Assembly (NCBI RefSeq): GCF_001544015.1
Contig: NZ_AP014924.1
Location: 1,922,001-1,986,000 of the forward strand
DNA length: 64,000 bases
Source: Limnochorda pilosa
Lineage (GTDB): Bacteria; Bacillota; Limnochordia; Limnochordales; Limnochordaceae
Direction: 5' to 3'
In this document: piece by piece, positions 7,551-26,996 of the stretch
Layout: each line of letters opens with the position of its first letter
How positions within the stretch are numbered: the first letter of the stretch is position 1
Translations under genes and position numbers: made by a program
The notes under the pieces: model-generated
Told to the model about the DNA's origin: nothing
Databases searched by the model: none
Seen by the model: the letters and a program-made list of their open reading frames with translations, nothing else

Positions 7551-8723
7551 CTACCGAGCTTCCCCGCGCACAGGCGCCGCCCCACGTTCTGGAATGATCT
7601 GGGAGCCCCGCTGCCGCCCATCGGGCAGGAAGACCTCGAACCAGCGCCCTGTGAACCGGGCGGCCGTGTCGTCGTCGCGGAGGGTGATGGCCAGGGACTC
7701 CAACTCCGCGCCGTCCCGGACCGAGACGGGCCCGAATCCGCCGTCCGCGAAAGCGGTGGCCATGTCGCCAGGGTAGCGCATCCGCTCAGAGCAGTAGCAG
7801 GCCAGGATGTAGTGCTCGCCGGGCGGCACCTGCAGGGTGAAGGGACCAGGCCGCGGCAGCGCCGCCCAGGCTGCCGGATAGGTGTCCGGGAAGGGCCGGG
7901 GGAAGGCGCCCACGTAGATCACCAGTCCCCGGCGACGCCCTTCGTAGACCACGCTTCCCCGAAGGAGGGTGCTGGCTACCGGTGCGCCGCCCACAACCAC
8001 CCCCATCGGAAGCTGTACCGGCTCCGCACCCTGGAGGGCACGGGCCCGCCGGCGAAAGGGGGCGGGGGCGATCCCGAGGTAACGCGCGAAGAGCCGGTGG
8101 AGGTGCGAGGGCGAGTCGTACCCCACCTCCAGGGCAACCTCCAGCACGCTCCGCTCCGTTTCGATCAAGAGCTCCTTGGCCCGTTCGGTTCGGAAGCGCG
8201 CCCGGTACTCCTGGGGGCTGAAACCCGTCGCCCGCTTGAAGAGGGTCGCGAGGTAGTGGCGGGTGAGGTGGACCTCGCGGCAGAGCCCGTCCAGGGTGAC
8301 AGCTTCACCCGGCGCGGACAGCCGCCGCTGGACGTGGCGCACGACCTCCCACTGCTCCTCCGTGAGCAGCGGCTGCTGGGCGGGCATGTAGGTGAGGTCG
8401 GCCCAGAGAGGGCTCGCGTCGATCGGGTGCGCCCCTCCCCGGTCCGGGTCCACCGGACGCCCGTGCCCGTAGGGCCCCCCGAAGCTCCCCCAGGCCGTCG
8501 CCTCCGGGAAGCGCTGCTCCTCCGGCCGCCACGAGGGACAGGCCACCGCGTGGAGGTACCAGCGTCCGGGAGGAACCTGCTCCAACAGGAAGGAGCCCGG
8601 GGCGGGCAGGAGCTGCCACGCTACCGGATCCCCGCCGATGCGGTGACCGGCGAAGGCTCCCACGTAGAGGACGCCGCCCGTCCAGGGAGCGTCGACCCAC
8701 ACCCTGCCCTCGATCGCGTGCAC
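7551..8723 (-). CDS. AraC-family regulator with HTH between two like domains
   Basis: About 390 residues. The central part (roughly 140-227) is an AraC/XylS double HTH: LTRHYLATLFKRATGFSPQEY, then VALEVGYDSPSHLHRLFARYLG and APAPFRRRA. The flanks look like two copies of one beta-rich domain. The N-terminal copy has GVLYVGAF ... LPAPGSFLLEQVPPGRWYLHA and the C-terminal copy has LVIYVGAF ... LPRPGPFTLQVPPGEHYILA. Each resembles a prealbumin/carboxypeptidase-regulatory-like fold. The start is GTG 8721-8723 with GGAGGTGG seven bases upstream, preferred over a longer frame. It is not operonic with the BNR group (190-bp gap), though on the same strand. The effector is unknown. Confidence 0.85.
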   Translation of the reverse strand: MHAIEGRVWVDAPWTGGVLYVGAFAGHRIGGDPVAWQLLPAPGSFLLEQVPPGRWYLHAVACPSWRPEEQRFPEATAWGSFGGPYGHGRPVDPDRGGAHPIDASPLWADLTYMPAQQPLLTEEQWEVVRHVQRRLSAPGEAVTLDGLCREVHLTRHYLATLFKRATGFSPQEYRARFRTERAKELLIETERSVLEVALEVGYDSPSHLHRLFARYLGIAPAPFRRRARALQGAEPVQLPMGVVVGGAPVASTLLRGSVVYEGRRRGLVIYVGAFPRPFPDTYPAAWAALPRPGPFTLQVPPGEHYILACYCSERMRYPGDMATAFADGGFGPVSVRDGAELESLAITLRDDDTAARFTGRWFEVFLPDGRQRGSQIIPERGAAPVRGEAR

Positions 8724-8847
8724 GCGCGGTCCACCTCCGCACCCATGTTCGTCTCTGGGTTCGACAGAAACCGCGCGTATCCTTGTCGGTAATGATTCGC
8801 CTTGCCGGGATCGTGCAAGCTCGTTCTCCGGGCTCAAACCCGCGGGC

Positions 8848-9243
8848 TCACCGTTCCGCTTCCACCCCGCCCGCGTCCGGGCCCGGCACCGTCTCCCCCA
8901 CCCCGCGCCCGAACGAGGGCGCGGCTTCCGCCAGGTCGTCCCGGATGCTCTCCGACGCTAGCGGTACGCCGCTCCGGTGTGCGGCCTGGGCGATCATGTG
9001 GGTGGTCACCGGGGAGATGAGAAAGATGAGCAGCACCGCCAGGATGGGCCGCAGCATGAGGACCCCCTGCTGGAGGGTGGCCAGCCATGAGAGGCCGATG
9101 CCCATCAGCAGGATCCCCCCGGTTCCGGCGATCCCGGCCGCGTGGAAGCGGCTGTAGACGTCGCGGAAGCGCAGAAGGCCCACGGAGCCGATCAGCATCC
9201 AGACGGCGGCCAGCAGGATGAGCACCTCAGCGGCGGTCTGCAT
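8848..9243 (-). CDS. mnhG: Na+/H+ antiporter subunit G
   Basis: This is the small membrane subunit of the Mrp (Mnh) multisubunit cation/proton antiporter. The 131-residue product has three hydrophobic segments and the family phrase GLLRFRDVYSRFHAAG near residue 23, followed by LISPVTTHMIAQAAHRSG. It carries a polar C-terminal tail of about 30 residues. It is the last gene of mnhABCDEFG and overlaps mnhF by 17 bp. Confidence 0.95.
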   Translation of the reverse strand: MQTAAEVLILLAAVWMLIGSVGLLRFRDVYSRFHAAGIAGTGGILLMGIGLSWLATLQQGVLMLRPILAVLLIFLISPVTTHMIAQAAHRSGVPLASESIRDDLAEAAPSFGRGVGETVPGPDAGGVEAER

Positions 9244-9508
9244 CGATGGGGATCCCCTTCACCAGGTAGTTGGCGATGGCCAGGGTGCCCACGAAGGAGA
9301 CCACCGCGAGCGCCAGCATCGCATCGAAGAAGTCGGTGTTCCCGCCCCGCACGCTCCAGACCCCCATGACCGCGATGAGGTGCAGCCCCACCACCTCCAG
9401 GGCCATGGCCCGGTCGGCGGTGGTCGGGCCCAGCAGCACCCGGGCCGCGGCCAGGCCCAGGGAGAGCCCCAGGAGCGCCAGGGCCAGATCCAGGATCGAA
9501 GGCGTCAT
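9227..9508 (-). CDS. mnhF: Na+/H+ antiporter subunit F
   Basis: A 93-residue Mrp subunit with three hydrophobic helices. Diagnostic features are RVLLGPTTADRAMALEVVG, the conserved R-x-x-x-G-P-x-x-x-D-R region of MrpF, and an FFDAMLALAVVSFVGTLA helix. The start is ATG 9506-9508, which overlaps the mnhE stop. MrpF is implicated in cholate/Na+ efflux in Bacillus (family knowledge). Confidence 0.95.
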   Translation of the reverse strand: MTPSILDLALALLGLSLGLAAARVLLGPTTADRAMALEVVGLHLIAVMGVWSVRGGNTDFFDAMLALAVVSFVGTLAIANYLVKGIPIDADRR

Positions 9509-9978
9509 CGCTCCCACACCCCCCGCACCAGGCGTTCGAAGAGCCGCTCGGAGGCCGCGACGTCGTCGGGCGCCTTCAGGTCCACCACGTGGATGAAGAG
9601 CTGTGAGCGGTCCGGCGAGAACTGGACCGAGACGGTCCCCGGGGTGAGGGTGATCATGTTGGCCACCGCCACCCGGTGCCAGTCCTCCTGCACCGCCACG
9701 GGAACCCCCATGATCCCCGGCTGGCGGCGCCCGCCCGGGTCCAGGATGAGCCGGGTCACCCAGACCGCGGACTTGAGCTGCTCCCACACGAGGCGCCCCA
9801 GGAGGCGGAGCGCGCCCCAGACCGGCACCAGGTAGAAGCGCCGCCCCTGCCCCCGCACCGCGAGCCATGTGAGCCCCGCCCCCACCCCATAGCCCAGGAG
9901 GAGGTTGATCCACGAGAAGGGCTCGAAGAAGAAGGCCCACGCCACGGCCACGGTCAGGTTGATGAGAAGCTGGCCCAT
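9505..9978 (-). CDS. mnhE: Na+/H+ antiporter subunit E
   Basis: A 157-residue Mrp subunit. Two N-terminal membrane helices (about 4-45) precede a cytoplasmic domain carrying NMITLTPGTVSVQFSPD, the MrpE core motif, and then LFIHVVDL. It lies between mnhD (52-bp gap upstream) and mnhF (overlapping). Confidence 0.95.
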   Translation of the reverse strand: MGQLLINLTVAVAWAFFFEPFSWINLLLGYGVGAGLTWLAVRGQGRRFYLVPVWGALRLLGRLVWEQLKSAVWVTRLILDPGGRRQPGIMGVPVAVQEDWHRVAVANMITLTPGTVSVQFSPDRSQLFIHVVDLKAPDDVAASERLFERLVRGVWER

Positions 9979-10030
9979 CCTTTCACCCCCGTGTAGGCGC
10001 CGGACTCGACCCGATCGCCCCTTGCCCCCT

Positions 10031-11572
10031 TCAGAACCGGCCGCTCACCAGCACCCCGGCCGCCTGGGGCCCCAGCACCGCGCCCACGTAGCGGGCGGGC
10101 TGCATCAGTTCCAGCGCCGTCGCATACGTGTAGTCCAGGACGTAGGCGGCCCCCACGCCCATGGCCACCGAGATCAGGAGCATCCCCACCGCCGGCCAGA
10201 CCAGCCCCGCGGTCGCCTCGGAGCCCACCTGCCGCTCGCCCGTGGAAGGCCCCCAGTACGCGTAGCGCCAGATCTTGATCATGGAGAAGAGGGTGAGGAA
10301 GCTCACCACCACGCTCACCGCCACCACCAGGTAGCCCCCCGCCCGGAGCCCCCCCAGCATCAGCGCGACCTTGCTGAAGAAGCCCGAGAAGGGTGGGATC
10401 CCCGCCAGGGAGAGGCCGCTCAGGAAGAAGATCGACGCGAGGAAGGGGTGGCTCTTCAGCACCCCGCTCATCTTCTCCAGGTGGGTGGTGCCGGTCACCA
10501 GCTCGGTGGCCCCGGCGGTGAGGAAGAGGCCGCTCTTGATCATCATGTTGTGCACGATGTGGAAGATCCCGCCCGCGAGCGCCAGCGGCGTGTAGAAGCC
10601 CAGCCCCATGAGCATGTAGCCGATCTGGCTCACGATGTGGAAGGCCAGGATCCGCTTGAAGTCCATCTGGGCCACGGGGCCCACCACGCCCAGGAACATG
10701 GTGAAGGAGGCCAGCACCAGGAAGAGGACCTGGTGGGTGACGGCCACGTTCCCCACGAAGATCAAGGTGAAGACCCGGTAGAGCGCGTAGATCCCCACCT
10801 TGCTCAGGAGGCCCGCGAAGAGGCCGACGATGGCCGTGGGCGGCGTGAAGTAGCTGTAGGGCAGCCAGAAGTAGAGGGGGAAGATAGCTGCCTTGATGCC
10901 GAAGACCGCCATGAAGACCACCGCGATCACCAGGATCCAGCCCCGGTCGGTGGCAGCGGCCACCTTCACCGCCAGGTCGGCCATGTTGACCGTACCCAGG
11001 GTGCGGTAGAGGACAGCCACGCCCACCAGGAAGAGGGTGGAGGCGACGATGTTGATGGCGATGTACTTGAGGCCCTCCTGCAGCTGTAGCCGGCCGCCCC
11101 CCAGGGTGAGGAGCACGTACGAGGCCAGGAGCGTCACCTCGAAAAAGACGAAGAGGTTGAAGAGGTCGCCAGTGAGGAACGCCCCGTAGACGCCCGCCAT
11201 CTGGAACTGGAAAAGCGGGAAGAAGAAGGCCCGCTGCCGCTCCTCGTCCACGGACCGGAGGGCGAAGGCGAACGCGAAGAAGGCCACCACGCCCGCGGCC
11301 AGCGCCATGAGGACGTTCAGCCGGTCCGCCACGAAGAGGATGCCGTAGGGTGCCGGCCAGTCCCCCGCCCGGTAGACCAGGGGTCCGCCCTGCAGGACCA
11401 AGACGAAGAGCCACAGGTCCACCGCGAGGGCGGCGACCACCCCCAGGGCCCCCGCCGCCCGCTGGTAGCGCAGGTGTCCGTGACCCAGCACCAGGAGGAT
11501 GCCGAAGCCCAGGCTCACCACCACCGGCAGGACGGGCAGGTTGCTGAACGGCGCCAGCTCGAGGCTACTCAT
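10031..11572 (-). CDS. mnhD: Na+/H+ antiporter subunit D
   Basis: A 513-residue antiporter-like subunit homologous to NuoM/NuoN. It contains KAAIFPLYFWLPYSYFTPPT near residue 220 and MDFKRILAFHIVSQIGYMLMG near residue 305, the MrpD versions of the pump signatures. The start is ATG 11570-11572, overlapping mnhC by eight bases. It is full length. Confidence 0.96.
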   Translation of the reverse strand: MSSLELAPFSNLPVLPVVVSLGFGILLVLGHGHLRYQRAAGALGVVAALAVDLWLFVLVLQGGPLVYRAGDWPAPYGILFVADRLNVLMALAAGVVAFFAFAFALRSVDEERQRAFFFPLFQFQMAGVYGAFLTGDLFNLFVFFEVTLLASYVLLTLGGGRLQLQEGLKYIAINIVASTLFLVGVAVLYRTLGTVNMADLAVKVAAATDRGWILVIAVVFMAVFGIKAAIFPLYFWLPYSYFTPPTAIVGLFAGLLSKVGIYALYRVFTLIFVGNVAVTHQVLFLVLASFTMFLGVVGPVAQMDFKRILAFHIVSQIGYMLMGLGFYTPLALAGGIFHIVHNMMIKSGLFLTAGATELVTGTTHLEKMSGVLKSHPFLASIFFLSGLSLAGIPPFSGFFSKVALMLGGLRAGGYLVVAVSVVVSFLTLFSMIKIWRYAYWGPSTGERQVGSEATAGLVWPAVGMLLISVAMGVGAAYVLDYTYATALELMQPARYVGAVLGPQAAGVLVSGRF

Positions 11573-11927
11573 GGGGATCCTCCAGGCTCCTCAGGCCTTC
11601 GGTGTCGTCGGTGCCATGGGCCTGGTATGCCCGGTAGGCCAGGACCAGCACGAAGGCGGTGGTGGCGAAGCCGATGACGATCGCGGTCAGGATGAGCGCC
11701 TGCGGCAGCGGATCGGTGTAGGCCGGCGTGCCCGCGGCGGCGGTCACCGCGTCCCCAAGGATCGGCGGCCCGCCCCGCTTGACGCCCCCCGAGATGAAGA
11801 GCATCAGGTTCGCCCCGTGGGAGATGAGCACCGTGCCCAGCACCACCCGCAACAGCTCGCGCTGCAGCAGCAGGTAGATGCCACACCCGACGAGCACCCC
11901 GATGGCCAGTGAGGTCAGGAGCTCCAT
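11565..11927 (-). CDS. mnhC: Na+/H+ antiporter subunit C
   Basis: A 120-residue NuoK-like subunit. LISHGANLMLFISGG and DPLPQALILTAIVIGFATTA are characteristic of MrpC, the latter being the conserved last helix. The start is ATG 11925-11927, within the 3' end of mnhB (13-bp overlap). Confidence 0.96.
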   Translation of the reverse strand: MELLTSLAIGVLVGCGIYLLLQRELLRVVLGTVLISHGANLMLFISGGVKRGGPPILGDAVTAAAGTPAYTDPLPQALILTAIVIGFATTAFVLVLAYRAYQAHGTDDTEGLRSLEDPHE

Positions 11928-14944: not shown

Positions 14945-15106
14945 ACCTGCACACGGAGACTCCAGGATACAGGGATCGGCACCCCATCCTGCGGGCTGAA
15001 GCCGCCGTGCTGAACTGACTCTTCGGTCTTCGCGCGGCGCGCCGGAACGGTGTTGTCGGAACCTGTCGGCAGTACTTGGTCCCCCGGCAGTGCCTCAGCC
15101 AAAGCG

Positions 15107-15140
15107 AACGCCCGCCGGAGATCGGCTCCTGGCGGGCGTT
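15107..15140 (-). terminator. Hairpin downstream of tRNA-Ala
   Basis: A nearly perfect inverted repeat: AACGCCCGCC plus GGAG pairs with CTCC plus GGCGGGCGTT, with a five-base loop and one bulged base. It begins six bases after the tRNA 3' CCA. The following bases read TCGCTTT on the minus strand, only a weak U-tract, but such tracts are common in GC-rich genomes. It insulates the tRNA from the mnh operon. Confidence 0.65.
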
Positions 15141-15145
15141 TCCTC

Positions 15146-15221
15146 TGGTGGACCTGATGGGATTCGAACCCACGACCTCTGCGATGCGAACGCAGCGCTC
15201 TCCCAGCTGAGCTACAGGCCC
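15146..15221 (-). tRNA. tRNA-Ala (CGC)
   Basis: A full cloverleaf on the minus strand with encoded CCA. The acceptor stem GGGCCTG/CAGGTCC contains the G3-U70 wobble that identifies alanine tRNAs. The anticodon stem CTGCG/CGCAG carries the loop TTCGCAT, so the anticodon is CGC, reading codon GCG. The T-arm GGGTTCGAATCCC is canonical. A dedicated CGC species suits a high-GC genome. Confidence 0.97.
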
Positions 15222-15282
15222 ACGAGCAACCCTAAGTATACAACGGCGGCTGGTCGTGCGCAAGGTGCCGCCTTGCCTCACA

Positions 15283-15298
15283 AAAGAGGTACCCGAAA
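15283..15298 (+). repeat. 16-bp direct repeat, copy 1
   Basis: AAAGAGGTACCCGAAA, identical to a second copy at 15319-15334 (36-bp period). Both lie just upstream of the transposase fragment and are probably subterminal binding sites or end sequence of the insertion element. Confidence 0.6.
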
Positions 15299-15318
15299 GA
15301 GGTTCGTTGCCTCGGAAG

Positions 15319-15334
15319 AAAGAGGTACCCGAAA
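15319..15334 (+). repeat. 16-bp direct repeat, copy 2
   Basis: Second copy of AAAGAGGTACCCGAAA, 36 bp after the first and about 38 bp before the transposase start codon. It flanks the left end of the insertion-sequence remnant. Confidence 0.6.
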
Positions 15335-15371
15335 TGGGTCGACTCCCCGCGCCGAGAAAGGAGGAGCAGCG

Positions 15372-15757
15372 ATGAGCCTGAAGGAGGCGGGGGGAGTGCC
15401 GCTCACGTTGAGCGAACGTCGGGCGGTGGTCCGTGAACTGGCCGAGAAGTACCAGCGGGCCCGCAATGGCGAGAAAATGCGGCTCCTGGACCATGCCCAG
15501 CACGTGCTCGACTACAACCGTTCGTACGCTGCCAGAGTCCTGAGGAACGTATCTCACTCGTTGCACCACACCAGGAGTCCCCGGCGGCAAGGGAGCCGAC
15601 GGCCTGGGCGGTGCGTCGTCTACGACATGCCGGTGAAGGAAGCCCTGCAACGCGTGTGGGCCATCTTGAGCTTCCCCGCGGGCAAGCGGTTGGCGCCCTT
15701 CCTTCCGGAGGTCGTTCCCATCCTGGAGCGCCTTCCGCAGGGCGCCCCGCTCATGCA
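15372..15757 (+). pseudogene. Truncated ISNCY-like transposase
   Basis: The frame begins at ATG 15372 after AAAGGAGGAG. It encodes LTLSERRAVVRELAEKYQRA, EKMRLLDHAQHVLDYNRSYA, VYDMPVKEALQRVWAI and GKRLAPFLPEVVPILERL. These match the N-terminal helical DNA-binding region of ISNCY/integrase-core transposases (family knowledge). The DDE catalytic domain is missing: similarity stops near 15757, where the frame enters the antisense of the neighbouring YgiT gene. A functional enzyme would exceed 400 residues. The right end of the element was not found. Confidence 0.75.
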
Positions 15758-16002
15758 GGGACCGGAAAGACCACGTTCACCACCGGTTCAACGAGGGTGT
15801 GGCTCTCGGCCCATCTCAGGAGGGGCTGCACCAGATCTTCCACCGCCTGTGCAACATCCCACTCGAGAACGGCGTTCTCGCACCGCGAGCAGACAGCGAC
15901 CGCTGGAATCCCAGTAACGGTCACCGTCATCCTTCCTTTGCGGTACACTTGCGTTGCCGATCCCGCTCCGATCATATCCGCTCCGCACAGTTCGCAGGCG
16001 AT
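15751..16002 (-). pseudogene. YgiT-type zinc-finger antitoxin, start lost
   Basis: The frame encodes a YgiT/MqsA-type N-terminal zinc finger: ACELCGADM, then TVTVTGIPAVAVCSRCENAV, a C-x2-C pair followed by C-x2-C. The family is the antitoxin partner of small RNase-like toxins. An ATG at 15973-15975 would cut off the first CxxC. An in-frame ATC at 16000-16002 is preceded by GAGGTGA at suitable spacing, so either translation begins at a rare ATC or the original ATG has mutated. The 3' end runs to the junction with the transposase fragment. The adjacent toxin is also broken, so decay is the simplest reading. Confidence 0.65.
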
Positions 16003-20548: not shown

Positions 20549-22363
20549 GTGCCGTTGGAGCTGAAGGTGACCGTACCCATCCTGCACGGGTCCTGGGTTT
20601 GGGCACCGCCCAGGGCCCGCGCGGAACGCTGGAGCGAGCCCATCCGAGGAGGCGAGCTGGACCTCCAGGCTTCCCTGACGGGCGCAGCCCGGATCCTCCG
20701 GGCCCTGGGGCGGGCGCGCCGGCAGGGGCCGGATCCGGAGAGGCTGGCCTGGTTCGGGCTGGCCTGGCGGCTGCACGTCCTGGAGCCGGTGGACCGTGGC
20801 GACCTGCTCGCACCCCGGCTCCTGGCCCAGCGCTGGCGGGAGGTGGGGGTGATCCCCTACCCCCACCAGCTGGAGACGGCCCGGCGGGTGGTGGAGGATC
20901 TGGACGGGCGGGCCATCCTGGCCGATGAAGTGGGCCTCGGCAAGACGCTGGAGGCGGGGCTCGTCCTGAAGGAGTACCTCCTGCGGGGCCAGGTGGAGCG
21001 GGCCCTGGTCCTTTGCCCCGCCGCCCTGGTCTACCAGTGGTACCAGGAGCTGCGGGAGAAGCTGGACGTCCAAGCCATCATGCAGCGGGACCCCTCGGAC
21101 TGGGAGCGCCCGGGGGTGATCATCGGCTCGCTGGACCTGGCCAAGCGCTCCCCCCACCGGGAGATCCTGGCAGGCCAGCGTTTCGACCTCCTCATCGTGG
21201 ACGAGGCCCACAAGCTGAAGAACCCCCGGACCCAGAACCACAAGCTGGTGCAGGCCATCCCCCGCACCTACACGCTGCTCGTCACGGCCACACCCGTCCA
21301 GAACGGGCTGGAGGAGCTCTACCACCTGACAAGCCTCCTGCGCCCCGGCCAACTCGGCACCTACCGCACCTTCCAGGCCGCGTTCATGATCGACCGGCAC
21401 ACCCCGCGGGCTCCCGAGGAGCTGCGCCGTCTCCTGGGACGGGTCCTCATCCGCCATCGCCACCGCGAGGTGGCCAAGGACCTGCCCGAGCGCCGGGTGG
21501 AGACCCTCCTGGTGGACCCCACCCGGGAGGAGCGGGCCTTCTACGACGCGGTCACGGACCTGGTGCGCCGGGAGTACCGGCGGCTCGGCACCCTGGCCGG
21601 GATGCTCCCCCTGATCACCTTGCAGCGCGAGCTGGCCTCCAGCGTCGAGGCGGCGTGCGCCACCCTGGAGCACCTGCTGGACCAGGGCGACCTGGAACCT
21701 GAGCTGGCCGGCCGGCTCCTGGAGCAGGCCCGCTCGGTGAGCCGGCAGGCCAAGCTCGAACGCTGCCTGGAGCTGGTGCGGGCGACGGAGGGACAGGTGC
21801 TGCTCTTCACCGAGTACCGCGCCACCCAGGGAGTGCTGCTGGGGCGCCTGCAGGCGGAAGGGATCGTCGCCCTCGCCTTCGACGGCAGCCTCTCGGCCTC
21901 GCGCAAGGCCTTCGTGCGGGAGCTCTTCCGCCGGCGGGGTCAGGTGCTGGTGAGCACCGATTCGGGCGCCGAGGGCCTGAACTTCCAGTTCTGCCACCAT
22001 CTGATCCACTACGACCTGCCCTGGAACCCGATGCGGCTCGAGCAACGGATCGGCCGGGTGCACCGCCTGGGCCAGACCCAGCCGGTGCTGGTGCGGACCC
22101 TGGCCGTCCGGGGAAGCGTGGAGTCGTACATGCTCTACCTGCTCCAGCAGAAGATCCGCCTCTTCGAATCGGTCATCGGGGAGCTGGACGCGATCCTCTC
22201 CGGCGCCGCGCTTCAGACCACGGTGGAGGCAGCGTTCACCCGGGCGTTGCTCGAGTCCCGGGACGAGGCGGACCTGCTCACGCGCCTGGACGAGCTGGCC
22301 GGCCGCATCCTGCAGGAGCGCCGCCGGCTGGACGAGAGCCGGGAGCGGGTCCCGTGGCTGTGA
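20549..22363 (+). CDS. SNF2-family helicase A (YqhH-like)
   Basis: A 604-residue SF2/SNF2 ATPase. A roughly 105-residue N-terminal region is followed by PYPHQLETA (Q-motif area), ADEVGLGKTLEAG (Walker A), LIVDEAHKLKN (Walker B/DEAH), LLVTATPVQN (motif III), STDSGAEGLNFQF (motif V) and QRIGRVHRLGQ (motif VI). A C-terminal helical tail of about 90 residues follows. The short, RapA-like layout resembles B. subtilis YqhH as I recall it. It starts at GTG 20549 with GGGGGG upstream. The last codons overlap the partner gene. It probably remodels nucleic acid-protein complexes; substrate unknown. Confidence 0.93.
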   Translation: MPLELKVTVPILHGSWVWAPPRARAERWSEPIRGGELDLQASLTGAARILRALGRARRQGPDPERLAWFGLAWRLHVLEPVDRGDLLAPRLLAQRWREVGVIPYPHQLETARRVVEDLDGRAILADEVGLGKTLEAGLVLKEYLLRGQVERALVLCPAALVYQWYQELREKLDVQAIMQRDPSDWERPGVIIGSLDLAKRSPHREILAGQRFDLLIVDEAHKLKNPRTQNHKLVQAIPRTYTLLVTATPVQNGLEELYHLTSLLRPGQLGTYRTFQAAFMIDRHTPRAPEELRRLLGRVLIRHRHREVAKDLPERRVETLLVDPTREERAFYDAVTDLVRREYRRLGTLAGMLPLITLQRELASSVEAACATLEHLLDQGDLEPELAGRLLEQARSVSRQAKLERCLELVRATEGQVLLFTEYRATQGVLLGRLQAEGIVALAFDGSLSASRKAFVRELFRRRGQVLVSTDSGAEGLNFQFCHHLIHYDLPWNPMRLEQRIGRVHRLGQTQPVLVRTLAVRGSVESYMLYLLQQKIRLFESVIGELDAILSGAALQTTVEAAFTRALLESRDEADLLTRLDELAGRILQERRRLDESRERVPWL

Positions 22364-23445
22364 TCCCCACCTGGCTCCAAGAGGGTCTGCCTCTTCTTGG
22401 CGGAGCGCTGCGCCTCCTGGAACCGGGTCTGGTCGAGGTGACGCTCCCGCCCGAAGGTCTGGCCGAGCTGGAAGAGATCGTCCTTTCACCCTTCGTCCCG
22501 TCGCCCCCCTCCCCGCCCCGGGTGTGGGCGCTGGACGACGAGGGGGCGCGCCGCCACCCGGAGGCCGAGTGGGTGGCCCCGGGCAGCGCCCGCTTCCGGC
22601 AGTGGGTGGAGCTCGGGCGGCGGCGCGCGCCCGCGGCCGTGGCCCGGTGGCTGGACGGAGACCCGACGTGGGTTCCGGTCCTGGAGCTCCTCTGGCGGGT
22701 GGAGAGCAACGGGTCGGGCCGGCTGGCCTGGACCCTGGCGAGCCGCGCCCTGCTGCCGGGAGGGCCCGTGGACGTGCGGGTGCCCGAGGAGGAGCCCCCC
22801 TGGCTGGACTGGCTCCGAACCGGCCGCCTGGGGGCCGGCTCGCCGCCGGGTGCCCCCAGGCCCCGCCTGCGAGAAGCCGTGGAGGCGACCCTGCGGGCGC
22901 TGGCGAACCGCCTGGCCCCCGAGGCCGCCGGTTGGGCCCGCGAGCAGCGGACCCGCTGGGAGGCGGAGCGGCGCCAGGTGGCCGCGTACCACCAGGCCCT
23001 CCTGCGGGAGGACCCCGACGGAGATGGCCCGGCGGCCCTGGAGCGTCACCTGGAGGAGCTGGAGCGAAGCCTGGCCCCCCGCCTGCGGGCTCGGCCGCTT
23101 CTGGCCCTGCTTCTTTACCTGCCGCCCGGGGTGGCGCGCGGCCTGGTGAGACCCGAGGCCGGCACGATCGGGTCCAGGGACGGGAGCAGTTCGTCCGAGA
23201 GGGCCGCGCAGTCCGGACAGGCGCGGGCAGGCACCGCGCGGCCCGGCGCAGCGCTGTCGGAAGGGCCGGCGGGCATGGCGCTGCCGCACGCGGCGCAGGT
23301 GGGACGACCGCACGCGGCGCAGGATCCCGCAGCGCATCGGGGACAGAAGGCGGTCCCGCACGCGCAGGGGGACGCGCAGCCCGGGCAGAGGAGCCTCGGG
23401 CAGCGACAGAGGAGCAGGCGATCGACCTCGCGCCCGCACTCCTGA
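22354..23445 (+). CDS. SNF2-partner protein A (YqhG-like), read-through C-terminus
   Basis: The open frame encodes 363 residues and overlaps the helicase A stop by ten bases, so the two are translationally coupled. Residues 1 to about 260 look like real protein: a compact beta-rich start, PVLELLWRVESNGSGRLAWT, then a helical part (WAREQRTRWEAERRQVAAYH) and PRLRARPLLALLLYLPPG. The order 'W..ARxRWE ... Y ... PR ... LLYLP' recalls YqhG proteins. Residues after about 262 are antisense to the zinc-finger end of the converging gene and are probably read-through past a lost stop. Function unknown. Confidence 0.7.
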   Translation: MAVIPTWLQEGLPLLGGALRLLEPGLVEVTLPPEGLAELEEIVLSPFVPSPPSPPRVWALDDEGARRHPEAEWVAPGSARFRQWVELGRRRAPAAVARWLDGDPTWVPVLELLWRVESNGSGRLAWTLASRALLPGGPVDVRVPEEEPPWLDWLRTGRLGAGSPPGAPRPRLREAVEATLRALANRLAPEAAGWAREQRTRWEAERRQVAAYHQALLREDPDGDGPAALERHLEELERSLAPRLRARPLLALLLYLPPGVARGLVRPEAGTIGSRDGSSSSERAAQSGQARAGTARPGAALSEGPAGMALPHAAQVGRPHAAQDPAAHRGQKAVPHAQGDAQPGQRSLGQRQRSRRSTSRPHS

Positions 23446-24350
23446 CAGGCCAGGCCGGACCACCGCCTCTGGGCCAGGTTCCAGGCGGCCTCCAGCTCCA
23501 GCGGCTCAGCCTCGCCCCTGCCCCGCTCCGGCCGCACGGTGAGCTGCAGCACCAGGTGGGGCGTCCAGAGGAGCGCGGCGCCAACCGGCTCCGCCTCCAG
23601 GCGGACCCGGTACCGCTCCGCCACCTCGGCCATGCGGCGCCGTCGCTCGCGCACAAGGCGGGCCCGGGCTTCGGCCAGGTCCTCGCGCAGGGCCCGCAGA
23701 CGCTCCTCCACCTCGGCCGGGACCCCGCGGGTGGACGCCCCCGGCAGCAGGAGGCGGGCCCGCAGTCCTTCGAGCTGGAGGAGCATCGCCCTCAGCGGTT
23801 CCGCCGCCTCGTCCTCGAGACCGCGGTAGTACGCCTCCAGGCGTTGCTCCTCCAGCTGGCGCCGCTCGTGCACGCCCCGCCGAAAGGACCTTCCGGGCTC
23901 CTCGGCCCAGCGGGGCAGCGCCTCCAGCGCCCGCTCCAGGAGGCGGTGAAGCCCGTACGTCTGCCCGCGCGCCCCCGGGGCCGGCGACGGCCCGGCCGCG
24001 GCAGGCACCGGAACCGCGGGTTCCACCCACTGCCCCTCGGCGTCGGCCATCAGGACGAGGGTCTCCTCCCGGGCGAGGTCGGCCCTCCACCGCAGGCGGA
24101 AGACGAAGAGCGGATTCTCGCGGTATTCGAGGCGTATCCGGTCCAGGCGCACGCGCACCCCGGGCAGACGCGGCGCCGGCGGGGGGAACGGGGGCACACG
24201 CCACGCCTGCAGAGGCAGCCGGCCGGCCGTCCAGCGGGGGAGGTCCGCCAGGGTCTCCAGCCACCGTTCCGAGGGGGGAGGCACGAAGAGTTGGCAGGTG
24301 GTCCCTGTCCCGCCGGCTGCCGCATCGGTGGGGCCGGGATCAAAGGGCAT
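23115..24350 (-). CDS. SNF2-partner protein B with C-terminal zinc fingers
   Basis: 411 residues. The N-terminal beta-rich part contains RIRLEYRENPLFVFRLRWRA. A long coiled-coil follows (about 150-270: RRGVHERRQLEEQRLEAYY and RLRALREDLAEARARLVRER). The tail is cysteine-rich: CQEC, CRC, CPGC, CAC, CPRC, CAAC, CAAC and CPDC, enough for three or four Zn sites. The ATG overlaps the helicase B stop by 11 bases, mirroring module A. The last 331 bp overlap the opposite-strand frame of partner A. The Cys pattern makes this strand the convincing coding one in the overlap. It may be the nucleic-acid or targeting subunit of helicase B (inference). Confidence 0.8.
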   Translation of the reverse strand: MPFDPGPTDAAAGGTGTTCQLFVPPPSERWLETLADLPRWTAGRLPLQAWRVPPFPPPAPRLPGVRVRLDRIRLEYRENPLFVFRLRWRADLAREETLVLMADAEGQWVEPAVPVPAAAGPSPAPGARGQTYGLHRLLERALEALPRWAEEPGRSFRRGVHERRQLEEQRLEAYYRGLEDEAAEPLRAMLLQLEGLRARLLLPGASTRGVPAEVEERLRALREDLAEARARLVRERRRRMAEVAERYRVRLEAEPVGAALLWTPHLVLQLTVRPERGRGEAEPLELEAAWNLAQRRWSGLACQECGREVDRLLLCRCPRLLCPGCASPCACGTAFCPRCAAGSCAACGRPTCAACGSAMPAGPSDSAAPGRAVPARACPDCAALSDELLPSLDPIVPASGLTRPRATPGGR

Positions 24351-26121
24351 CGGCGGTTCCCCCCTCCCGGCCTCGCTCGAGCCAGGCCAGGCCTTCGCGG
24401 GCCTCCTCGTACCGCCGGGCGGCCTCGGCGATCCGCTCGCCCACCTGCTCCAGCGCCACTTCGGGCGGGTCCCCTCCGGCCAGGGCCTGCGCGATCTCCC
24501 CCTCCAGGTGCAGGTCCGCGTCCCCCAGGATCAGCTCCAGCTCCCCCACCACCCGCTCGAAGAGGCGGAGCTTCTCCTCCAGGAGGCGGAGCACGTGCTC
24601 TTCCAGGCTCCCCCGCAGGACCAGGTGGACCACCTTCACGGGCCGGAGCTGCCCGAAGCGGTGCACCCGGCCGATCCGTTGCTCGAGCCGCATGGGGTTC
24701 CAGGGCAGGTCCACGTTCAGCACCCGCCGGCAGAACTGCAGGTTGTGGCCCAGGGCGCCCGCGTCGGTGGAGAGCAGGACGCGGCCGCGCCCACGTGCGA
24801 AGGCGTCCAGGGCGGCCTCGCGCTCGGAAGGTCCCAGGCCCCCGTGGAGGAGCACCGGTCGTTCCCCAGCCGCCCGCAGGCGCCGGGCCAGGGCCCGCTG
24901 GGTCCCTCGGAACTCGGTGAAGACCAGGACCGGCTCGTTCCACCGCCCCAGCCGTTCCGCGACCGCTTCCTCCTTGATGCTCCGGGGCGCCGCCCGGCAG
25001 AGGGCGAGCAGCCGGGCCGCCCGGTCGCGCCCCAATACCCCGCCCCCGCGGCGCGCGAGCCGCTCCAGGCTCTCGGCCAGGCTGGCGGGGGAGCTGGAGG
25101 CCTGCTTCAGAAGGGTCACCAGGGCCAGCCAACCCTTCCCCTGCCGCACCGAGGCCGCCGCCTGCCGCACGAGGTCGAGGGCCTCCGCCTGGAGACGGGC
25201 CTCGGCTGGATCCGGATCGAGCACGTCCACCTCCACCCGCCGCGGGGGCAGCTCCAGGGCCGCCTCGCGCCGGGTGGTGCGGATCATGACATCGGCCAGG
25301 CGCTCACGGAGCAGCTCGACGTTTCGGGGCTGGCGCCGGTCCAGCACGAAGTGCCGCCGGAAAGAGCCGAAGGTGTGGAAGTGCCCCGGCTTCAGCAGCG
25401 TCACCAGGTGGTAGAGCTCCCGGAGCTCGTTCTGGATGGGCGTCGCCGTGAGGAGGAGGAGGTACTTCTTCTGCAGGTCGTCCACGAGCCGGAAGCTCAA
25501 GGTGGCCGGATTCTGGAGCCGGTGGGCTTCGTCCACGATCACCACGTCCCAGGGCCTCCGGACCAGGAGCTCCCGCACCCCCGGGCGGCGGGCCCGCTCC
25601 AGGGTCGTGATGAGGCGGGGGGTCCGGCTCCAGGAGCGCGTCCCGCCGGGGCGTTCCAGGTGCAGCCCGGCCCGGTCGGCCTCCCCGATCCACTGGTGCA
25701 CCAGGCCTGCCGGTACCAGCGCCAGCACGCTCCCGGCCAGACTCCGCTCCATCAGCTCCAGGGTGATGAGCACGGCCTCCAACGTCTTGCCCAGCCCCAC
25801 CTCGTCGGCCAGGATCGCCCGGCCCTTCATCCGCTCCAGGACCTCCACCACAGCCGCTCGCTGGTGCGGAAGGAGCGTGACGGGCAGACGTCCCTCGCAC
25901 AGGAGCGGTGCCCTCTCCGAGGCCCCGGCCTCCACCAGCCGCCGCAGGGCGGATGCGCCTGCATCCCGCCCTGCGGCCAGGGCCTCGATGAGGGCCCGCC
26001 CGTCCCCACACACCGTAACCTCTTCCGACGAAAGAACCACGCCGCCCTCCCCCAGGTGGGTCCAGGGTCCCAAGCCCGCCTCTCCCCCTGAGAGTCTGCC
26101 CCAGGAGGGCGGCCCGGCCAC
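24340..26121 (-). CDS. SNF2-family helicase B
   Basis: A 593-residue SF2/SNF2 ATPase with LLPHQRAAVVEVLERMKG, ADEVGLGKTLEAV, VIVDEAHRLQN, LLLTATPIQN, STDAGALGHNLQF and QRIGRVHRFGQ, so all motifs are intact. It is homologous to helicase A but differs in the N-terminal roughly 75 residues and in motif V. It starts at GTG 26119-26121, five bases after the spoIIP stop, and therefore probably shares spoIIP's transcript. Its stop overlaps partner B. Confidence 0.92.
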   Translation of the reverse strand: MAGPPSWGRLSGGEAGLGPWTHLGEGGVVLSSEEVTVCGDGRALIEALAAGRDAGASALRRLVEAGASERAPLLCEGRLPVTLLPHQRAAVVEVLERMKGRAILADEVGLGKTLEAVLITLELMERSLAGSVLALVPAGLVHQWIGEADRAGLHLERPGGTRSWSRTPRLITTLERARRPGVRELLVRRPWDVVIVDEAHRLQNPATLSFRLVDDLQKKYLLLLTATPIQNELRELYHLVTLLKPGHFHTFGSFRRHFVLDRRQPRNVELLRERLADVMIRTTRREAALELPPRRVEVDVLDPDPAEARLQAEALDLVRQAAASVRQGKGWLALVTLLKQASSSPASLAESLERLARRGGGVLGRDRAARLLALCRAAPRSIKEEAVAERLGRWNEPVLVFTEFRGTQRALARRLRAAGERPVLLHGGLGPSEREAALDAFARGRGRVLLSTDAGALGHNLQFCRRVLNVDLPWNPMRLEQRIGRVHRFGQLRPVKVVHLVLRGSLEEHVLRLLEEKLRLFERVVGELELILGDADLHLEGEIAQALAGGDPPEVALEQVGERIAEAARRYEEAREGLAWLERGREGGTADAL

Positions 26122-26126
26122 GCGGC

Positions 26127-26996
26127 TCAGGGGCCGGCGATCCCCAGGAAGGAACGGTTCAGGGTCGCCTGGGTCTCGTTGAGGACGCTTCGGACCACGT
26201 CGGCCAGGAGCTGGGCCGAGCGCGTCGCCTCCTCGAGGGTGCTCTGCCGGTACTCGCCGATGAAGACCTGAAGGGCGTTCGGGTGCAGGTTGCCGTTGTA
26301 GTCGTCGTGCTGGATCTTCACGCCCCGGGAGAGCCCCGGGTAGAGCTGGTCCATCTTGGCCCGCACCGCCTCGGCGAAGGCCAGGTTCTCCTCGGTGTTG
26401 GCGTTCGAGAGGTCACCCACCACGAAGAGAATCCGGGCCGCGGGCTTGCCGCCGATGTCGACCGTGGCGTACCGCTCGCCCTGAACCTCGGGCAGGGCGT
26501 CGCGGTGGACGTCGATCACGGTCTTGATCGCTTCGTTGGCCGCCAGCACCTGGCGTACCGTTTCACGGCTGTTCGCGTACGACTGCTCCCAATCCGGGTA
26601 GTCGTGCACCTGGGTGGCGTGGAGGGTGCGGATCCCCGCGGCGTTGAGCGCCTCGGCCAGCACCCGCCCCACCTCGGTCACGTCGCCGGGCGTACCCTGC
26701 GCGTGGGCGGACTTGGGCGCGTAGTTCTCCGTGGCGTGACTGTGGTAGACCAGGACCTCCGGCAAGCGCGACCGGCCCGGTGCTTCCGGCGCCCCGCGGG
26801 TCCCCTCGCCGGGTGCCCCGGGCTCGGCGCCCCCCGTGCCACCCTCGCGTTCGGCGGCCGGCGGGGCCGGCCGCGCCGGGCTGCCGGGACCGAAGCCCAC
26901 CAGGCGCGCGGTGACTACGGCGGCCGCCACCAGGATCACCAAGACCGCGAGCAGGCTGGGCCCGCGCCGCAACACCGACCGGACTGAGGTGGCCAT
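26127..26996 (-). CDS. spoIIP: Stage II sporulation protein P
   Basis: A 289-residue SpoIIP amidase, which with SpoIID and SpoIIM removes septal peptidoglycan to start engulfment. An N-terminal membrane anchor (about 11-33) and a Pro/Gly-rich linker precede the catalytic domain. Domain motifs are VLVYHSHATENYAP (zinc-binding His and Glu), VIDVHRDALP and RILFVVGDLSNAN. The start is ATG 26994-26996 with GGAAGGGGGG upstream. It is shorter than B. subtilis SpoIIP (about 400) because the N-terminal extension is reduced. Confidence 0.95.
   Translation of the reverse strand: MATSVRSVLRRGPSLLAVLVILVAAAVVTARLVGFGPGSPARPAPPAAEREGGTGGAEPGAPGEGTRGAPEAPGRSRLPEVLVYHSHATENYAPKSAHAQGTPGDVTEVGRVLAEALNAAGIRTLHATQVHDYPDWEQSYANSRETVRQVLAANEAIKTVIDVHRDALPEVQGERYATVDIGGKPAARILFVVGDLSNANTEENLAFAEAVRAKMDQLYPGLSRGVKIQHDDYNGNLHPNALQVFIGEYRQSTLEEATRSAQLLADVVRSVLNETQATLNRSFLGIAGP

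Follow-up and report, generated by a model that had tools for sequence, protein, structure and literature searches.

The window analysed here, a stretch of 64,000 nucleotides from the 3.8 Mb, single-contig genome of Limnochorda pilosa, carries two modules, each consisting of an SNF2 helicase gene and a partner gene. By sequence comparison, module A was identified as the YqhH-YqhG pair of Bacilli, because its helicase groups with YqhH and its partner belongs to the YqhG family, and module B is a paralogue of this pair with C-terminal zinc ribbons. We consider it fairly probable that both modules are RapA-like translocases in split form, which remove stalled RNA polymerase or aid repair, a function that we infer.

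On the forward strand, the gene of helicase A (hA, 20549-22363) encodes a RapA-group SNF2 ATPase of 604 aa, which was assigned as the orthologue of Bacilli YqhH/HepA from its ORF, Pfam domains and trees. It was followed by the gene of partner A (pA, 22354-23445), a YqhG-family ORF of 363 aa whose conserved part covers approximately residues 1-265 (to about 23150), as judged from profiles and an AlphaFold2 model. On the reverse strand, the gene of helicase B (hB, 24340-26121) encodes a RapA-group SNF2 ATPase of 593 aa from a separate B clade (Pfam, trees and AU test), followed by that of partner B (pB, 23115-24350), a YqhG-like protein of 411 aa with C-terminal zinc ribbons (profiles, alignment and AlphaFold2 model). 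A preliminary description of the window had reported two facing, tail-to-tail modules, and its ORFs and coordinates were correct. It had also reported that each partner start overlaps the helicase stop by about 10 bp; the overlaps were 10 bp in module A (22354-22363) and 11 bp in module B (24340-24350), with the partner start inside the helicase end. Absent from that description was a convergent overlap of the 3' ends of pA and pB on opposite strands, 331 bp in length (23115-23445), formed by the pA tail on the forward strand and the zinc-ribbon end of pB on the reverse strand. The last ~95 codons of pA were antisense to the zinc-ribbon part of pB and lay outside the conserved pA family; the encoded tail was rich in A, G, Q, R and S. 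In a genus-mate (L085), the 3' overlap was 115 bp only. The spoIIP gene (26127-26996, reverse strand; PF07454, 3e-58) lay upstream of hB in the same orientation, separated from it by 5 bp, and spoIIP, hB and pB are probably co-transcribed. A promoter and terminator scan gave no signal above shuffles. Elsewhere in the window, an ORF resembling a broken transposase (15090-15917) was observed near a tRNA-Ala gene (15146-15221, reverse strand).

Both helicases contained SNF2-rel_dom and Helicase_C domains well over the Pfam cut-offs. The SF2 motifs ADEVGLGKT, VDEAH, TATP, FTEYR/FTEFR and QRIGRVHR were readable in the translations, which bears out the earlier claim that both proteins keep all SF2 motifs. 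The RapA-group SNF2 ATPase core was present in hA and hB, which shared 43% identity over 506 aa in a pairwise alignment (E 2e-104). The Pfam model Tudor_RapA, which matches E. coli RapA, gave no match in either helicase. At least one helicase of this kind was found in 59 of the 61 genomes searched. In the trees, which were obtained by "quick" searches, hA clustered with Bacilli YqhH with 98-100% support, whereas hB was placed outside the YqhH group, alongside B-type helicases of families not belonging to the class, indicating that hB is a paralogue and not an orthologue of YqhH. Forcing the Limnochordia hA and hB sequences into one clade against all other rows was rejected (p-AU 0.00018); the same test with Bacilli as the only other group gives no information, since an unrooted tree always fits three groups. 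On this phylogenetic evidence, the hB clade is separate and older, and it is also present outside the class.

The two modules recurred together in relatives, as the idea of a doubled system had demanded. The convergent layout was observed in every one of the 16 loci that carried both modules on a single stretch, and MrfA (DEAD + MZB) was encoded between the modules in 12 of these 16; the relatives share ancestry, so these counts are not independent events, and parts may be missing from loci taken from draft genomes. In two genomes of a family outside the class (f40), the modules converged at a distance of about 27 kb, without mrfA between them. The B module was also found near spoIIP and a Mur ligase gene in families f40, f72 and f103. 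Because the trees separate hA from hB, the AU test rejected their union and the B module also occurs in f40, f72 and f103, the module pair is, as far as sequence comparison can tell, an old neighbourhood of two paralogues and not a recent inverted duplication. The local inverted duplication proposed at the outset was thus not supported.

BLASTP of pA against pB gave no usable similarity, and therefore profiles built from 30 pA and 16 pB homologues were compared. The two family profiles aligned with a probability of 99.7% (E 4e-27, 273 columns), and after the zinc part had been cut away the probability was 99.7% over 261 columns; the homology that a doubled unit would require was thus recovered. 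PF11079 (Pfam YqhG) was matched by 24 of the 30 Limnochordia pA orthologues at E <= 0.1 (best 8.6e-19), and one orthologue (L093) scored over the curated cut-off. The window pA alone obtained no score against PF11079; it falls within family A4, whose profile aligned to Bacilli YqhG with a profile-profile probability of 99.6%. The pB profile aligned to YqhG at 98.2%, and a B-type homologue (L108) matched PF11079 over residues 9-258 (2e-11). These profile results indicate that both partners are YqhG-like. The reading of the modules as yqhH-yqhG-like units was therefore upheld, with a YqhH-grouping helicase gene followed by a yqhG gene in module A and a unit of the same kind in module B. AlphaFold2 models of pA (pLDDT 89, 34 sequences) and pB (pLDDT 74, only 8 sequences) both showed a beta-rich part and long helices, in agreement with the architecture first described. 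In 20 of 20 phylum-wide loci fetched with the partner profile, an SNF2 helicase sequence of this kind was found beside the partner.

The pA model was compared with 350,542 PDB chains using Foldseek, and the only matches at E <= 0.001 were four E. coli RapA structures (8t0l, 8.5e-9; 8so8, 1.3e-7; 8spg, 1.7e-7; 6bog, 2.5e-7). The matches had a probability of 1.00 and covered 273-280 alignment columns, approximately the length of pA. They were associated with low TM-scores (TMq 0.35-0.41) and rmsd values of 10.7-12.6, and therefore pA appears to match RapA domain by domain and not as a rigid body, as expected if the two parts are hinged differently. Foldseek gave no RapA residue ranges, and the C-terminal placement of the match comes from weak sequence matches. 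One pA orthologue matched RapA_C at positions 108-171 (E 0.004). The pA profile aligned to RapA residues ~711-778 with an hhalign probability of 14%, and its score of 30.9 was above all 120 shuffled controls (maximum 19.8). The pB core profile scored 27.9 against RapA, marginal relative to a control maximum of 26.1, and the pB model gave no significant match in the PDB. For pB, a likeness to the RapA Spacer/C-terminal region is suggested weakly, by homology to pA. Because the pA model matched only RapA and weak sequence matches pointed to the RapA C-terminal region, YqhG looks like a separately encoded RapA Spacer/C-terminal region. In one relative (L088, G005; 8622-11585), helicase B and partner B were fused in a single ORF of 987 aa, the one-chain order being the same as in RapA. 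No paper linking YqhG to RapA was found in the open literature searched, subscription journals being outside its scope.

The partner of module B contained 17 Cys, and its Cys-rich zinc-ribbon region covers approximately residues 302-355 (23286-23447, reverse strand). The alignment indicated that a Cys4 ribbon (C302, C305, C322 and C325) was invariant in 16 homologues, and further Cys pairs were present in most of them. The preliminary description had stated that zinc fingers were gained by B or lost by A. The difference between A and B was confirmed; as to its direction, ancestral presence followed by loss in the A/YqhG line is no less likely than gain in B, given that CxxC..CxxC also forms the end of related partners in Haloprofundus and Candidatus Eisenbacteria. 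A FYVE/RING identity of the pB zinc region was considered from weak PDB matches and rejected as Cys-rich chance or generic cross-brace similarity. A B-type partner 680 aa long and containing 53 Cys was also observed (L108:11542-13584, the same as L212, G072), in which a YqhG-like part is followed by a long tandem zinc-ribbon array.

Within the class, the mrfA gene adjoined the modules in several families, and it was co-directional with hB-pB where the strands were read. In one locus (L087), a hexapeptide-repeat (gamma-carbonic-anhydrase-like) gene was located between the modules instead of mrfA. In the L. pilosa genome, no protein of the MZB (MrfA) or RNase_H_2 (MrfB) family was found; MZB was present in 53 of the 61 genomes of the set and was also absent from the genus-mate genome. 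A loss of mrfA would account for the overlap between the 3' ends of pA and pB. Additional conserved neighbours had been guessed from their sizes to be a nuclease/ATPase pair, and they turned out to be the Mur ligase and MrfA. A 948-aa ORF in another locus (L086) was rejected as a spurious antisense ORF.

E. coli RapA frees stuck RNA polymerase. In the modules, the helicase gene would encode the SNF2 motor, and the partner gene would encode the part that follows the motor in the RapA chain (Spacer and C-terminal domain), with the translational overlap yielding the two subunits in similar amounts. Motor and partner would come together as a single enzyme, which would hold on to DNA and exert a pull on a bound machine. 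The most likely target would be an RNA polymerase that has stalled, either at a lesion or following termination, and it would be removed or pushed. Module A would represent the general YqhH/HepA-YqhG version. Module B would be an old paralogue whose partner probably uses its zinc ribbons for DNA or protein contact, and it probably serves access to DNA damage, because its genes line up with that of the repair helicase MrfA in many relatives.

Published work on RapA and YqhH bears on how far repair belongs in this mechanism. The known job of RapA is RNA polymerase recycling, in which its Spacer contacts the beta' zinc-binding domain of the polymerase, and deletion of E. coli rapA causes no UV sensitivity (PMC8501970); RapA itself therefore gives no ground for assuming a repair role. 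Together with RapA being the sole fold match of the pA model, and with the modules staying together where mrfA is elsewhere or absent, this makes it possible, if unlikely, that both modules are RapA-type RNA polymerase recyclers without a part in DNA repair, MrfA and spoIIP being passive neighbours. The synteny with mrfA could indeed be passive. Against such a purely transcriptional role, however, mrfA adjoins the modules in several families, and the Bacillus orthologues have been associated with damage survival. YqhH of B. thuringiensis hydrolyzed ATP and unwound DNA in vitro, and the yqhH knockout showed lower UV survival at 30 min, although not at 60 min (PMC10054049); for YqhH, these data qualify the earlier statement that it has no known biochemical role. 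B. subtilis HepA/YqhH was grouped with translocases acting on RNA polymerase, and its loss lowered the MMS survival of PcrA-depleted cells (PMC7385302). A bolder proposal, which we regard as quite improbable, is that module B and MrfA together make up a single excision-repair machine, which would clear the polymerase and unwind damaged DNA, and which would be the housekeeping counterpart, perhaps the ancestor, of the pairing of SNF2 and YprA helicases in DISARM, Dpd and ARMADA.

The preliminary description had also suggested a sporulation- or DNA-related remodelling machine next to spoIIP. The adjacency is real and conserved: besides the 5 bp gap between spoIIP and hB in the window, spoIIP adjoined the locus or was within a few kb of it in the majority of relatives, and also in families that do not belong to the class. 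However, the Mur ligase gene was an equally constant neighbour, the A module of Bacilli is located near sinIR and tasA (PMC6123443), and the fold match of pA is a vegetative RNA polymerase factor. No other sign of sporulation was seen, and the RapA fold and MrfA point to transcription and repair. A sporulation-specific remodelling of the chromosome or of transcription is very improbable.

The least probable reading is that the pairs constitute, or have descended from, an antiphage system like those of DrmD, BrxH and DpdE: DrmD, BrxHI and DpdE were the top-scoring models for the helicases, and DISARM-related systems repeatedly contain SNF2 and YprA/MrfA-type helicases (PMC12458937), but no profile reached its curated NCBIfam cut-off (DrmD, 233.6 and 197.7 bits against a cut-off of 610 bits), no gene at the locus was identified as a methylase or nuclease gene, and the modules are kept across the class beside spoIIP and the Mur ligase gene. 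Among the conserved neighbours inspected, which were a part of all neighbours, neither drmA, drmB or drmC nor a methylase was recognised, and neither a single DrmD sequence nor a Klebsiella BrxH-like protein matched the partner profiles. One split pair resembled a defence cluster and favours an antiphage link: on a plasmid of Haloprofundus halobius (L204:4806-7716), the gene of an SNF2 protein with 41% identity to hA overlapped that of a 387-aa partner ending in CxxC..CxxC, and DUF499, DUF262 and PD-(D/E)XK genes were located beside it.

The split RapA-like translocase that we favour would carry consequences beyond this locus. YqhG is labelled in Pfam as a protein of unknown function, and the RapA reading would give it a testable role. 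As a detached RapA C-terminal region, it would suggest that many Bacillota have kept a two-gene RapA. The zinc-ribbon B module and its link to MrfA raise the possibility that removal of RNA polymerase is connected with a second pathway of excision repair.

Compared with the YqhH (HepA)-YqhG pair of Bacilli, the Limnochordia locus shares the adjacent genes, the grouping of hA with YqhH and the membership of pA in Pfam YqhG; unlike in Bacilli, the pair is opposed by another pair, its paralogue, and lies close to spoIIP and in many cases to mrfA. With E. coli RapA, the modules share the SNF2 core of hA and hB, the fold of partner A and the order of motor then partner. RapA is one chain, whereas each module uses two genes; RapA also carries Tudor domains at its N-terminus; these gate the RapA ATPase and were not found in hA or hB. 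In addition, pB carries zinc ribbons. The MrfA/MrfB (YprA/YprB) pair for mitomycin repair is connected to the locus through MrfA, encoded between the modules in those 12 loci, and both families are absent from the present genome. The module B/MrfA arrangement is reminiscent of helicase pairings in several defence systems. DISARM, Dpd and Druantia have YprA/MrfA-family helicases at their centre, and in ARMADA such a helicase is paired with a RapA-type SNF2 protein (PMC12458937). The likeness to DrmD (DISARM), BrxHI/BrxHII, DpdE and ArmA lies in the top helicase models and in this recurrent pairing (PMC12458937); those proteins, in contrast, are single long chains in defence clusters, and no defence genes were identified here. 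As a speculation, the Limnochordia locus may be the housekeeping counterpart of these defence helicase pairings.
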